Of a stretch of 38,477 nt of DNA, positions 12,461 through 19,333 are shown one piece after another. A program made the translations under genes and the position numbers. The DNA comes from an uncultured Clostridia bacterium (lineage in GTDB: Bacteria; Bacillota; Clostridia; Oscillospirales; Acutalibacteraceae), in the NCBI GenBank assembly GCA_946637545.1, contig CAMPBI010000003.1:1-38477 (forward strand), given 5' to 3'. The notes beneath the pieces are model-generated. The model worked only from the letters and a program-made list of their open reading frames with translations, was not told the DNA's origin and made no database searches. Numbering within the stretch: position 1 is the stretch's first letter; the number at the start of each line of letters is the position of its first letter.

Positions 12461-14746
12461 ATGAACAAAGACGCGGTAAAACCGAACAAAGAACAGCAAA
12501 GAGTTATTGATACAATTGACGGCCCTGTGCTTGTTGTTGCAGGTGCAGGAACGGGCAAAACCGCCACGATTGTAAAACGTATTGAGCACATTATACGCGA
12601 CGGCTATGCTCTGCCGTGGCAGGTGCTTGCTATTACGTTTACAAACAAGGCGGCAGGCGAACTCAAGGACAGACTTATCAACACAATCGGCGACGAGGCT
12701 GCAGAAATCTGGGCGCAGACCTTTCACTCAATGTGTGCAAGAATGCTTCGCAGATACGGTGACAGGCTCGGCTATTCGCAGCACTTTACTATCTACGACA
12801 CCGACGACCAGAAGCGTGTTATGAAACGCGTTCAGAAAAGTCTTGGAATTGAGGATAAATTCCTCAATCACCGTTCAATTCTTGCGGAAATCAGTCACGC
12901 AAAGGACAGTCTGATAGGTCCTGCAGAGTACAAGGCTACCACTGTAAACGATTTCAGAAAAGCAAAAATAGCGCAATGCTACGAGGAGTATCAGAAGGAG
13001 CTGATGCGCGCTGACGCAATGGATTTTGACGATATGATTTACAACACCGTTGCTCTGCTCAAGGAAAATGAGGATGTTCTCGAGCAGTATCAGCATCAGT
13101 TTAAGTATGTTATCGTTGACGAGTACCAGGACACAAGCTACGCGCAGTATGTGCTTACATATTTACTTGCGGGCGGCTATCACAATATCTGCGTTGTCGG
13201 TGACGACGACCAGAGTATTTATCGTTTTCGCGGCGCCACTATCGAAAATATTATGCGCTTTAAAGAGCGTTACGAGGACGAAGGGCTCAAGGTAATTCAG
13301 CTCGAGCTCGCCGAAAACTATCGCTCAATGCAGAATATTCTTGACGCTGCAAACGGAGTTATCAAAAATAATTCCACACGACTTGCCGACAAGCGCCTTC
13401 GCTCCTATGCCGGCAAGGACGGCGACAAGGTTGTGCTCTACACAGCAATCAGCGAAACTGACGAGGCACAGTTTATTGTTGACGAAATCAACGAAAGTGT
13501 TAAAAACGGCAGGGCATACCGTGACCACGCCGTGCTTTACCGTATGAACGCGCAGTCGCGTAATATTGAAATGATGCTTGCAAAATCGGGCGTGTCGTAC
13601 AAAATTATCGGCGGCAACAGATTCTTTGACCGAAAGGAAATCAAGGATATTGTTTCGTACTTTGCGGTTATAAATAACACTGCCGACAATGTGCGCCTTC
13701 AGCGTATTATCAACACTCCTAAACGCGGTATAGGCGACACGATGTTCAACTATATTCTTGAGATTGCTGCAGTCAACAAAATGACTGCTTTTGAGGTGTG
13801 CGAGCACGCTGATGAGTTTGCAAAAACCTCGCGCAGCGCAGGAAAGCTCCGCGAGTTCTGCGACCTTATCAACGGCTTTATCAGATGCGCCGAGGACGGA
13901 ATGGAGCCGTCCGATTTGCTGCAGGAAATCATTGAAAAAACGCATTATTTTGAATATCTCGACGAGGATGACCCACAAAAAGCAGACAGCAGAAAAGAGA
14001 ATGTGCAGGAGCTTTCGTCAATGCTCATCAAGTATCAGGAGGATGACGACGAGTTCACGATTTCTGATTTTCTTGAGGACGTTGCTCTTGTGTCGGACAT
14101 CGATTCATACAACGAGGATGACGACTGCGTTGTGCTTATGACTCTTCACTCGGCAAAGGGACTTGAGTTTCCTGTTGTGTTCATTCCCGGTATGGAGGAG
14201 GGAATCTTCCCCGGAAATCAGAGTATGTACAGCGACGAGGAGCTTGAAGAGGAACGCCGTCTTGCGTATGTGGGTATCACACGGGCAAGGGAGAAGCTTT
14301 ACCTTATTAATGCGCGTCAGCGTATGCTTTACGGCACGACGAACAGAAACATAGCATCGCGTTTTCTGCGTGAAATTCCCGAGAGTGTAACCGAGGACAG
14401 AACTGTCAGAGAGCAGCCGAGGTCTTACTCCTTCGGCTCATCGTATTCGGGAGGCTCGGGCAGCTTCGGCACACCGAAAAAGCCGTATAAATACAGCAAA
14501 TCAACGCCCATCGGCGCGGCGAAGCAGAGCAGCTCTGCAGCGCATCAGTTCGGTCAGGCGGGCGGGGGAGCAGCGCCTTCGGGCGAATCGTATAATGCAG
14601 GCGACACCGTGCGTCATAAGTCGTTCGGAACGGGTGTGATTCTGAATGCAAAGCCAATGGGCAACGACACTCTGCTTGAGGTTGCTTTTGACAAGGCAGG
14701 CACCAAAAAGCTTATGGCAAACTTTGCCAAGCTCGAAAAACTTTAA
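12461..14746 (+). CDS. pcrA: ATP-dependent DNA helicase PcrA/UvrD
   Basis: GAGTGKTATIVKRIEHII Walker A, VDEYQDTS, GDDDQSIYRFRGA, TLHSAKGLEFPVVFIPGMEEG, EEERRLAYVGITRAR motifs. Confidence 0.97.
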   Translation: MNKDAVKPNKEQQRVIDTIDGPVLVVAGAGTGKTATIVKRIEHIIRDGYALPWQVLAITFTNKAAGELKDRLINTIGDEAAEIWAQTFHSMCARMLRRYGDRLGYSQHFTIYDTDDQKRVMKRVQKSLGIEDKFLNHRSILAEISHAKDSLIGPAEYKATTVNDFRKAKIAQCYEEYQKELMRADAMDFDDMIYNTVALLKENEDVLEQYQHQFKYVIVDEYQDTSYAQYVLTYLLAGGYHNICVVGDDDQSIYRFRGATIENIMRFKERYEDEGLKVIQLELAENYRSMQNILDAANGVIKNNSTRLADKRLRSYAGKDGDKVVLYTAISETDEAQFIVDEINESVKNGRAYRDHAVLYRMNAQSRNIEMMLAKSGVSYKIIGGNRFFDRKEIKDIVSYFAVINNTADNVRLQRIINTPKRGIGDTMFNYILEIAAVNKMTAFEVCEHADEFAKTSRSAGKLREFCDLINGFIRCAEDGMEPSDLLQEIIEKTHYFEYLDEDDPQKADSRKENVQELSSMLIKYQEDDDEFTISDFLEDVALVSDIDSYNEDDDCVVLMTLHSAKGLEFPVVFIPGMEEGIFPGNQSMYSDEELEEERRLAYVGITRAREKLYLINARQRMLYGTTNRNIASRFLREIPESVTEDRTVREQPRSYSFGSSYSGGSGSFGTPKKPYKYSKSTPIGAAKQSSSAAHQFGQAGGGAAPSGESYNAGDTVRHKSFGTGVILNAKPMGNDTLLEVAFDKAGTKKLMANFAKLEKL

Positions 14747-14755
14747 CAAAAAATC

Positions 14756-14813
14756 AACTCCTTCATAAGATGTACTAAAGCGATGCTTTAATAACTTATG
14801 AAGGAGTTTTTTT
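14756..14813 (+). promoter_or_regulatory. Terminator-like hairpin that contains the RBS of the next gene
   Basis: AACTCCTTCATAAG (14756-14769) pairs perfectly with CTTATGAAGGAGTT (14795-14808); inner hairpin TAAAGC-gat-GCTTTA; T7 tract 14807-14813, then ATG 14814. SD AAGGAG lies in the 3' arm. Confidence 0.8.
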
Positions 14814-15641
14814 ATGGCTGATGTACCTATCATCAACAACGCAAACAGCAGAATTAACGAGGCAGTTTGCATCGACACCAAGCGAATCTTTGACTCGTGT
14901 GTCAGCAAGGACTGCGCAGAGGATTTAAGAGTTACATTTTACGGTGGGTCGCAGGACATCATCGACAGAGCCGACAGTATCAAAACGCGCGACTGTGACA
15001 TAGTAGCAGTAAGCATCGATGTTGAGGATGTGCCTTTTAACAGAGGTTACTACAACGTTGACATCAATTTCTATTTCAGACTGCGCTTTGATGTTTACGG
15101 CACGCCTTTTGCAAATCCGCAGACAGTAATCGGCTTTACAAACTTTGAGAAAAAGTGCATTCTCTTTGGCTCCGAGGGCGACGTAAAGGTGTTCAAGTCA
15201 ACAATGAACCGCTGCTCAAATCAGCTTGACCGTCCCGAAGCGCCGCAGTACAGCAATCCCACTGCAAAGGTGCAGGCTGTTGACCCTGTTGTGCTTGATA
15301 CCGATGTTGTGGATATTCACCACTGCCGCCGTCCTATCTTTACAGCCTTCCCCGAGAGCGTAAGAGATATGGTCGACGACATCAATTTCCGCCCGAATCC
15401 GCGCAAGGCAGTGCTTGTAACGCTCGGTCTGTTCTCAATCGTTCAGATGGTGCGCGATGTGCAGCTTCTTATTCCTGCATATGACTACTGCATTCCGGAC
15501 AGAGAGTGTGATTGCGCAACACAGGATCCGTGCTCAACCTTCCAGAACATCGAATTCCCGGTTGATGATTTCTTCCCGCCCGAAAAGGACGATATTTCAA
15601 ACATCGGAATCAGTAATAACAACAATAATAACTGCTGTTAA
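14814..15641 (+). CDS. Uncharacterised Cys-containing protein with Asn5-Cys2 C-terminus
   Basis: 275-aa ORF (VCIDTKRIFDSCVSKDCAEDLRVTFYGG...CDCATQDPC...NNNNNNCC) with RBS AAGGAG and own terminator. Confidence 0.85.
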   Translation: MADVPIINNANSRINEAVCIDTKRIFDSCVSKDCAEDLRVTFYGGSQDIIDRADSIKTRDCDIVAVSIDVEDVPFNRGYYNVDINFYFRLRFDVYGTPFANPQTVIGFTNFEKKCILFGSEGDVKVFKSTMNRCSNQLDRPEAPQYSNPTAKVQAVDPVVLDTDVVDIHHCRRPIFTAFPESVRDMVDDINFRPNPRKAVLVTLGLFSIVQMVRDVQLLIPAYDYCIPDRECDCATQDPCSTFQNIEFPVDDFFPPEKDDISNIGISNNNNNNCC

Positions 15642-15646
15642 AAACC

Positions 15647-15682
15647 AAAACAGGCGTCGCTTCGGGCGACGCCTGTTTTTTT
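15647..15682. terminator. Bidirectional terminator between convergent genes
   Basis: AAAACAGGCGTCGC-TTCGG-GCGACGCCTGTTTTTTT; overlaps the malQ stop codon. Confidence 0.92.
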
Positions 15683-17400: not shown

Positions 17401-18825
17401 GTGGCTGTCAATACCAGAACGGTGAGCGAAAAAGAGCTTGACGAGCAAAGGGAATATTCACTTAAGGTTTCGGCAGTACTTAATCAGCGTTACACGGACA
17501 AGCCTCTCGCTTGCGTAGTTACATACGGCTGCCAGCAAAATGTTGCCGACAGCGAGCATATCAAGGGTATGCTTGACAAAATGGGTTACGGCTTTACAGA
17601 CGACAGGCAGAAAGCAAAGGTTATAATCTTCAACACCTGCGCTGTGCGCGAGCATGCAGAGGACAGAGTGTTCGGCAATGTCGGCGCACTCAAAAAGTAC
17701 AAGCTCGCAAATCCCGATGTTGTTATTGCGCTGTGCGGCTGTATGATGCAGCAAAAACATATTGCCGACAAAATTTACAACAGCTTTCCGTTTGTTGACC
17801 TTGTGTTCGGCACGCATGTTGTGCACAGGCTTCCCGAGCTGCTTTATAAAGCGATGACCCGCCGCAAAAGAGTTTTTGAGCTTCCGGACGAGGACGGCGT
17901 TATTGCAGAGGGACTGCCTGTCAGACGCGACAACGACAGTAAGGCATGGCTCCCTATTATGTACGGCTGCAATAATTTTTGCACCTACTGCGTTGTGCCG
18001 TATGTTCGCGGCAGGGAACGCAGCAGGCAGGTCAGCGATATTGTTGAAGAATTTGAAGAGCTTGTCAGCGAGGGCTACAAGGAAATCACACTTCTCGGGC
18101 AGAATGTCAATTCTTACGGCAAGGACCTTGAGCCAAGTGTGAGCTTTTCCGAGCTGCTGCGAATTCTTAACGGCATTGACGGCGATTTCAGAATCCGGTT
18201 TATGACAAGTCACCCGAAGGACTGCACAAGGGAGCTGCTCGAAACTATGGCACAGTGCGACAAGGTCGCAACGCACCTGCACCTGCCGTTTCAGAGCGGC
18301 AACAACAGAGTGCTCAAGGCGATGAATCGCGGCTACACCCGAGAAAAGTATCTTGAACTCATAAATTATGCAAAAGAACTTATGGGTGACGAGCTTTCAA
18401 TCACAAGCGACATTATTGTCGGCTTTCCCGGTGAAACGCGCGAGGAGTTTCTCGACACTCTTTCACTTGTTAACGAGGTGAAGGCAACGGGACTGTTCAC
18501 CTTTATCTATTCACCAAGAGTGGGTACTCCTGCTGCAAAAATGGACGACCCCGTCAGCCACGAGGAAAAGGCAAAGTGGCTTGCGGAAATTCTTGATGCG
18601 CAGGAAAAAATCTCTGCCGCGCAGATGAAACTCCACGCGGGAAAAACTTTTAAATGCTATGTGGTTGGCAGAGGCAAACTGGGCGATAATTATCTTGCCG
18701 CAAGAACAGACGGCAATTTGATTATAGAATTTGTAGGTGACGACGGGCTCATCGGCACCTTTCAGAATATCAAGGTTATTGAGCCGCTTACCTTCGTTTT
18801 GAAGGGCGAAATAGTAAATTGTTAA
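17401..18825 (+). CDS. miaB: tRNA-2-methylthio-N6-dimethylallyladenosine synthase
   Basis: MTTase domain (TYGCQQNVADSE), radical SAM CNNFCTYCVVPYVRGRERSR, LLGQNVNSYG, C-terminal TRAM. GTG start. Confidence 0.97.
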   Translation: MAVNTRTVSEKELDEQREYSLKVSAVLNQRYTDKPLACVVTYGCQQNVADSEHIKGMLDKMGYGFTDDRQKAKVIIFNTCAVREHAEDRVFGNVGALKKYKLANPDVVIALCGCMMQQKHIADKIYNSFPFVDLVFGTHVVHRLPELLYKAMTRRKRVFELPDEDGVIAEGLPVRRDNDSKAWLPIMYGCNNFCTYCVVPYVRGRERSRQVSDIVEEFEELVSEGYKEITLLGQNVNSYGKDLEPSVSFSELLRILNGIDGDFRIRFMTSHPKDCTRELLETMAQCDKVATHLHLPFQSGNNRVLKAMNRGYTREKYLELINYAKELMGDELSITSDIIVGFPGETREEFLDTLSLVNEVKATGLFTFIYSPRVGTPAAKMDDPVSHEEKAKWLAEILDAQEKISAAQMKLHAGKTFKCYVVGRGKLGDNYLAARTDGNLIIEFVGDDGLIGTFQNIKVIEPLTFVLKGEIVNC

Positions 18826-18842
18826 CTCAAAGGAGAAAAATT

Positions 18843-19256
18843 ATGAGTTTAGAATCAGTACTCAGAGAACTTGGCAAAGAAATTCAGAAGGACGAGCGCT
18901 TCATCAAGCTTCAGGCTTGCGCAAAGGCTAATGACGCAGATGAGGAACTCCAGAAGCAGATGCAGGAGCTTCAGCTTATGTCGCTCAAATTCCAGCAGGA
19001 AATGCAGAAGGGCGAGGAGGCTGACAAGGACAGAATCACCGAGCTTCAGACACAGTACCAGGACCTTTATAACGAGATTATGAAGGGCAGCAATATGATG
19101 AACTATTCAGTAGCCGCTTCGGAAATGGAGCAGATGGCGCAGTACATCAGCGCAATGATTGGTCTTTTCTTCGAGGGACAGGACCCCGAAACCTGCGAGC
19201 CGCCTGCACCGGAGGATTGCACACACGACTGCTCAACCTGCGGCGGCTGCCATTAA
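18843..19256 (+). CDS. YlbF/YmcA family protein with Cys-rich tail
   Basis: Helical YlbF-like body between miaB and mutS (synteny). RBS AAAGGAG and ATG 18843; tail ETCEPPAPEDCTHDCSTCGGCH. Confidence 0.85.
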   Translation: MSLESVLRELGKEIQKDERFIKLQACAKANDADEELQKQMQELQLMSLKFQQEMQKGEEADKDRITELQTQYQDLYNEIMKGSNMMNYSVAASEMEQMAQYISAMIGLFFEGQDPETCEPPAPEDCTHDCSTCGGCH

Positions 19257-19333
19257 TTACCCGACAAAGTCGGATTTCATAAGATAAAATCTCTGCTTTG
19301 CAAAGAAAAATAATTTGAGAGGGGAAATACAAA

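Follow-up and report, generated by a model that had tools for sequence, protein, structure and literature searches.

A sigma-K-type promoter motif nested in a terminator-like hairpin at the ribosome binding site of a putative sporulation gene

A hairpin over the ribosome binding site

The stretch of DNA analyzed here (the window) comprises 38,477 nucleotides of contig CAMPBI010000003.1 from an uncultured Clostridia bacterium of the family Acutalibacteraceae (assembly GCA_946637545.1). Within it, a pcrA-type helicase gene is followed after 67 nt by a gene starting at ATG 14814 (hereafter the 14814 gene), and the gap between them carries the hairpin which is the subject of this report. Its perfect 14-bp stem (AACTCCTTCATAAG paired with CTTATGAAGGAGTT; Table 1) encloses an inner 6-bp hairpin and holds the Shine-Dalgarno (SD) sequence in its 3' arm, as described in the initial annotation of the window. 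The structure (14756-14808) folds at -30.4 kcal/mol (z = -4.99), and none of 200 shuffled sequences proved as stable. The seven T which had been placed after the stem are all present, but two of them pair with the AA of the 5' arm and five remain 3' of the stem. A stable 14-bp stem directly followed by T5 has the form of an intrinsic terminator, which a terminator scan missed because the loop exceeds the 8-nt limit of the scan. No Rfam family was matched at the gathering score, one microRNA match lying below this threshold.

Of all genes in the window that have a recognizable SD, the 14814 gene alone has it fully paired, with a predicted unpaired probability of 0.00 versus 0.31-1.00 for the others. 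Folding prediction is consistent with the earlier proposal that the hairpin would hide the ribosome binding site (RBS) in read-through RNA. In the genus, the stem pattern is present in 48 of 60 genomes, almost always at a homologue of the 14814 gene, and in a pattern search covering the genus's other genes, no such nested hairpin recurred, bar a few chance-like repeats.

The two arms have changed together. Pairing of the 5' arm with the SD averages -11.1 kcal/mol for the locus's own arms versus -8.3 kcal/mol when arms are swapped between genera (0 of 200 draws as good), and in sliding upstream windows this gain is confined to about -12 to +11 around the CATA of the promoter motif described below. 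Variant SD sequences are accompanied by matching complements (AAGGAG/CTCCTT, GGGAGGA/TCCTCCC and GGGAGC/GCTCCC), further compensated pairs being CGGAGGTTT/AAACCTCCG, AGGAGGATT/AATCCTCCT and GGGGATTT/AAATCCCC. In the genus alignment, double changes occur at five pairs, in 12 cells versus 3.7 in shuffles (0 of 500); they were counted on the named structure because RNAalifold recovered part of the stem only (11 pairs). Two of these pairs sit at the free "nn" of the -10 element, where the letters are unconstrained by the promoter. Compensatory changes, whose absence in relatives had been named at the outset as an observation that would refute the proposal, are found both within and across genera.

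The hairpin is also associated with its genomic neighborhood. Where a co-directional gene, as judged from open-frame length, ends at most 75 nt upstream (26 genera), the pairing energy is -14.5 versus -8.5 elsewhere (34 genera; p = 3e-5), and the longest T-run before the ATG is 3.9 in genera with the hairpin versus 2.5 in genera without (p = 0.005). The upstream gene is pcrA in 15 genera and GH77, mutarotase-like, dagK-like or oxidoreductase-like in others; within the genus, five kinds of upstream gene (pcrA, GH77 glucanotransferase, mutarotase-like, dagK-like and others) accompany a constant hairpin. Because the upstream gene changes while the hairpin stays, the hairpin belongs to the downstream gene, and it would meet read-through from whatever gene lies upstream. 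The suggestion that it ends pcrA transcription agrees with its terminator-like shape, but the element is not pcrA's own.

Longer T-tracts and a close co-directional neighbor are also what a plain intrinsic terminator of the upstream gene would display, sharing its bases with the SD by chance and hiding the SD to no purpose of its own. This explanation is unlikely, as it is the SD that makes up the covarying 3' arm and several paired examples have no good T-tract, e.g., GGAGGATTATTATG (L071) and GGAGCTTTGTAATT (L032). Termination and RBS hiding are moreover compatible, and the terminator explanation differs in emphasis only.

A conserved promoter motif in the 5' arm

When 115 regions upstream of 14814-gene homologues, from 67 genera, were aligned on the start codon, the first conserved feature was TnAC-N16-CATAnnATG, present in 105 of the 115 loci and in 60 genera, a score which 9% of shuffled upstreams reach. 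The gap between AC and CATA is exactly 16 nt in 89 of the 105 motif loci and 17 nt in 8, the positions of CATAnnATG carry 1.3-2.0 bits in the logo (104 loci), and the -10 element of the window matches the pattern exactly. Of 25 readable loci from other families in the order, 22 carry the motif as well. In Clostridioides difficile, the -10 elements of sigma-K and sigma-E promoters are similar, while the -35 element is AC for sigma-K and ATA for sigma-E (PMC3789822); dpaA is a sigma-K gene in this species and in Bacillus subtilis, and spoIVA is a sigma-E gene in C. difficile. In a same-clade control, a motif score of at least 13 was found in 20 of 27 dpaA upstreams, where the spacing from AC to CATA is mostly 17, versus 3 of 29 for spoIVA and 3 of 28 for SASP genes. 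YabG, intended as a sigma-K control, is absent from the genomes of the family.

Near-constant spacing of AC and CATA, together with occurrence at dpaA and seldom at spoIVA (sigma-E) or SASP (sigma-G) genes, is what would be expected of a sigma-K-type promoter. In the genome of the window, the exact pattern has 9 matches versus 17 for the reversed control, so that on its own the motif carries no genome-wide weight; the argument is based on its conservation at the 14814 gene. On this sequence basis, a sigma-K-type identity is well supported, and the promoter is likely used by sigma-K. That it is read by sigma-E or sigma-A instead seems quite improbable. An overlapping weak sigma-70 match (TTAACA-N17-TAAGAT, 9/12) would favor such a reading, but at the position where TTGACA requires a G, one occurs in 6%, and the near invariant CA before TA is unexplained by this match. 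As for sigma-E, the -35 element is AC and not ATA, and the motif is rare before spoIVA, its -10 element being present before the sigma-K gene dpaA.

The -10 element overlaps the 5' arm, an overlap which is conserved. Transcription is predicted to start inside the hairpin, and the gene's own mRNA would therefore be devoid of the anti-SD arm: for the window, the predicted unpaired probability of the SD is 0.49 in the sigma-K RNA versus 0.00 in read-through RNA. The initial annotation saw no obvious separate promoter between the genes, which is true for sigma-A only, and held that expression probably requires an upstream start or active unfolding of the stem, whereas the nested promoter would yield an RNA without the 5' arm. 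It had also named a start between 14770 and 14795 as an observation that would speak against it, and the predicted start lies within this interval.

Two further explanations fare worse. If the inverted repeat served as a DNA operator bound by a dimeric regulator of sporulation, its overlap with the promoter and the wide conservation of the smaller inverted repeat found at the predicted start would be accounted for; the outer arms, however, differ in sequence from genus to genus but remain complementary to the local SD, which points to base pairing rather than a fixed protein site, and we hold this possibility to be very unlikely. A classical cis-regulatory RNA on the gene's own mRNA (thermosensor, riboswitch-like or protein-opened), as first proposed from the stable hairpin over the RBS and consistent with its conserved arms, is scarcely credible because the order-wide promoter has its -10 element in the 5' arm and its predicted start downstream of it, the main mRNA would lack the arm, Rfam offers no family, and the spacer varies with complementarity kept and no conserved ligand-like core outside the promoter.

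Table 1. Features at the 14814 locus (positions in the window)
Feature	Position	Strand	Basis or remark
pcrA-type UvrD helicase gene	12461..14746	+	Pfam/NCBIfam and open reading frame; TAA stop 14744-14746 overlaps the -35 element
-35 element TAACA of the sigma-K-type promoter (AC = 14746-14747)	14744..14748	+	Conserved spacing from AC to CATA
5' arm AACTCCTTCATAAG, anti-SD; promoter spacer and start of the -10 element	14756..14769	+	Folding, covariation
-10 element CATAAGATG, in the 5' arm and slightly past its end	14764..14772	+	Logo and exact pattern match
Inner 6-bp hairpin TAAAGC-GAT-GCTTTA, at the predicted start site	14776..14790	+	Folding; related inverted repeat order-wide
Mother-cell transcript start (predicted)	14777..14779	+	About 14 nt past the C of CATA; conserved purines RAAG
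3' arm CTTATGAAGGAGTT, contains the SD	14795..14808	+	Folding; covaries with the 5' arm
SD AAGGAG	14801..14806	+	7 nt ahead of the ATG
T-tract, terminator tail and spacer from SD to ATG	14807..14813	+	Longer T-runs in hairpin-bearing genera
275-aa protein of unknown family, putative late mother-cell sporulation protein	14814..15641	+	Distribution, SpoIVA co-occurrence

A second small inverted repeat, of the type TATTGAAG...CTTCAATA, is located at the predicted start site (14773-14790 in the window; also L263, L267, L268 and L288). It is widespread in the order, both at loci that have the SD-pairing stem and at loci that lack it (42% observed versus 18% shuffled per genus) and represents a candidate 5'-terminal mRNA hairpin or DNA site.

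A possible guard against read-through

The account we consider probable is that a late mother-cell (sigma-K-type) promoter lies inside the 5' arm of a terminator-like hairpin whose 3' arm is the SD of the gene. RNA reading through from the upstream gene has both arms and would terminate at the T-tract; RNA passing the T-tract would have its ribosome site locked by the hairpin. The sigma-K RNA, which would start beyond the 5' arm, would be translatable. The 14814 gene would then be expressed only from its own sporulation promoter despite a housekeeping gene 67 nt upstream, the element likely acting as a read-through guard by both termination and translational silencing.

More tentatively, the element may represent a general late mother-cell insulator in this family of spore-formers, with a sigma-K promoter, an upstream terminator and the SD fused in 60 bp. 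It would recur before several sigma-K genes, i.e., the 14814 gene and, in some genera, dpaA, and re-form with new sequences as the neighborhood changes. In two genera, dpaA upstreams (L162 and L164) have the same layout, CATAGAATG...CATTCTATGGGGG and CATAGGATG...GATCCTATGGAGG, with an inverted repeat which reaches the SD. For the dpaA set, own pairing is -8.8 versus -7.5 for swapped arms (3 of 300), a gain weaker than at the 14814 gene.

Several observations weigh against the proposed guard. In more than half of the genera, and for the most part outside the family, the SD-pairing stem is weak or missing, and across all genera the SD is unpaired at 0.28 in read-through RNA versus 0.34 with shuffled upstreams, a modest difference (p = 0.02). 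The dependence of the co-directional class on open-frame length belongs here as well. In addition, no match to SpoIVA or DpaA was found in the genome of the window, whose assembly is 92% complete; SASP is present there, and the sigma-K model is matched at full length at least twice. Because the promoter is older than the hairpin and more widely distributed, and the stem is weak or absent in many genera, the hairpin is an add-on which the promoter does not need.

The downstream protein and known systems

No relative of the 275-aa protein was found in Pfam, NCBIfam or PDB, and its structure prediction was uninformative (mean predicted local distance difference test score, 34). Homologues are present in 150 of 200 genomes of the family, in 57 of 60 of the genus and in 78 of 98 sampled from the order. 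In the 200 family genomes, 140 contain both this protein and SpoIVA, 10 the protein only, 27 SpoIVA only and 23 neither (odds ratio 11.9, p = 2e-9). This co-occurrence and the sigma-K-type motif bear out the link to sporulation which had been raised initially, and the product of the 14814 gene is likely a late mother-cell sporulation protein.

In several species, the homologue is split, its first 20-30, ~64 or ~144 codons lying far from the rest, and large serine recombinase genes (PF00239 and PF07508) adjoin the breaks. The promoter is kept with the 5' piece of the gene in the seven cases examined (7/7). This is the pattern of skin-type intervening elements, which are known in sigK, gerE, spsM and yabG (PMC5595907, PMC10747680). 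Elements of this kind suit a gene whose product is required only by a cell doomed to die, and the split homologues thereby support the assignment of the 14814 gene as a terminal mother-cell gene. The gene was not found named as a target of these elements in the literature searched. The split loci (L289-L303, in G127, G291, G290, G269, G337, G012, G170, G152, G025 and G257) place skin-type elements at three sites or more, G257 having two breaks, and the exact att cores could not be read from short repeats. Matches to sigK are likewise in two pieces in some genomes, namely G021, which belongs to the genus (contig C11, 15921-16262 and 50228-50578), G038, G031, G030 and G045; where on one contig, the pieces are 7-34 kb apart, as expected of a skin-like element.

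The arrangement has precedents in phages. In the leaders of phage T4 gene e (lysozyme), soc, gene 49 and I-TevI, a hairpin locks the RBS on longer upstream-initiated RNAs, and a stage-specific late promoter located in that hairpin's 5' strand yields a short RNA that is translated well (PMC3014915). The 14814 element resembles gene e in layout, with a promoter in the 5' strand and an SD predicted to be sequestered in upstream-initiated RNA. It differs in that gene e depends on a phage late sigma factor and early/late timing, whereas here a sporulation promoter of sigma-K type resides on a bacterial chromosome, the T-tract adjoins the stem and the promoter overlaps the upstream stop codon. The transposase genes of IS10 and IS50 are protected in a similar manner: read-through RNA folds into a hairpin that covers the RBS, and RNA from their own promoter is free of the 5' arm; in contrast to the 14814 element, these are mobile elements which guard against outside promoters, and no developmental sigma factor is involved.

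The sigma-K promoters known from Bacillus and C. difficile (PMC517825, PMC3789822) share the AC -35 and the CATA-type -10 and drive mother-cell genes such as dpaA, but in the literature searched no description was found of such a promoter lying within a terminator/RBS hairpin. RNA thermometers and RBS-sequestering riboswitches also have a hairpin over the SD, but theirs is on the gene's own mRNA, which here is predicted to be without the 5' arm. A literature search, which covered subscription papers in part, found no sporulation case of a nested RBS hairpin described; here, a layout known from phages is conserved in the chromosomes of gut and rumen bacteria that form spores.

If this account is true, a bacterial developmental program uses a phage trick, its promoter hidden in the very arm which silences read-through RNA, and a stop codon, -35 element, terminator, -10 element, start site and RBS are packed in 67 nt. 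This would be a simple way for a cell to prevent expression of a terminal-stage spore gene located just after a housekeeping gene. It is also a warning that promoters should be mapped before an RBS hairpin detected in silico is labeled a riboswitch, and it points to an unnamed, widespread putative sporulation protein repeatedly targeted by skin-type elements.

Elsewhere in the window, ACC-N16-CATAAGATA occurs at 19259-19286 between the open reading frame 18819-19256 and mutS; it may be due to chance, the pattern being unenriched in the genome. A strong bidirectional terminator-like hairpin of 15 bp is present at 15647-15679, in the gap that separates the 14814 gene from the convergent GH77 gene.
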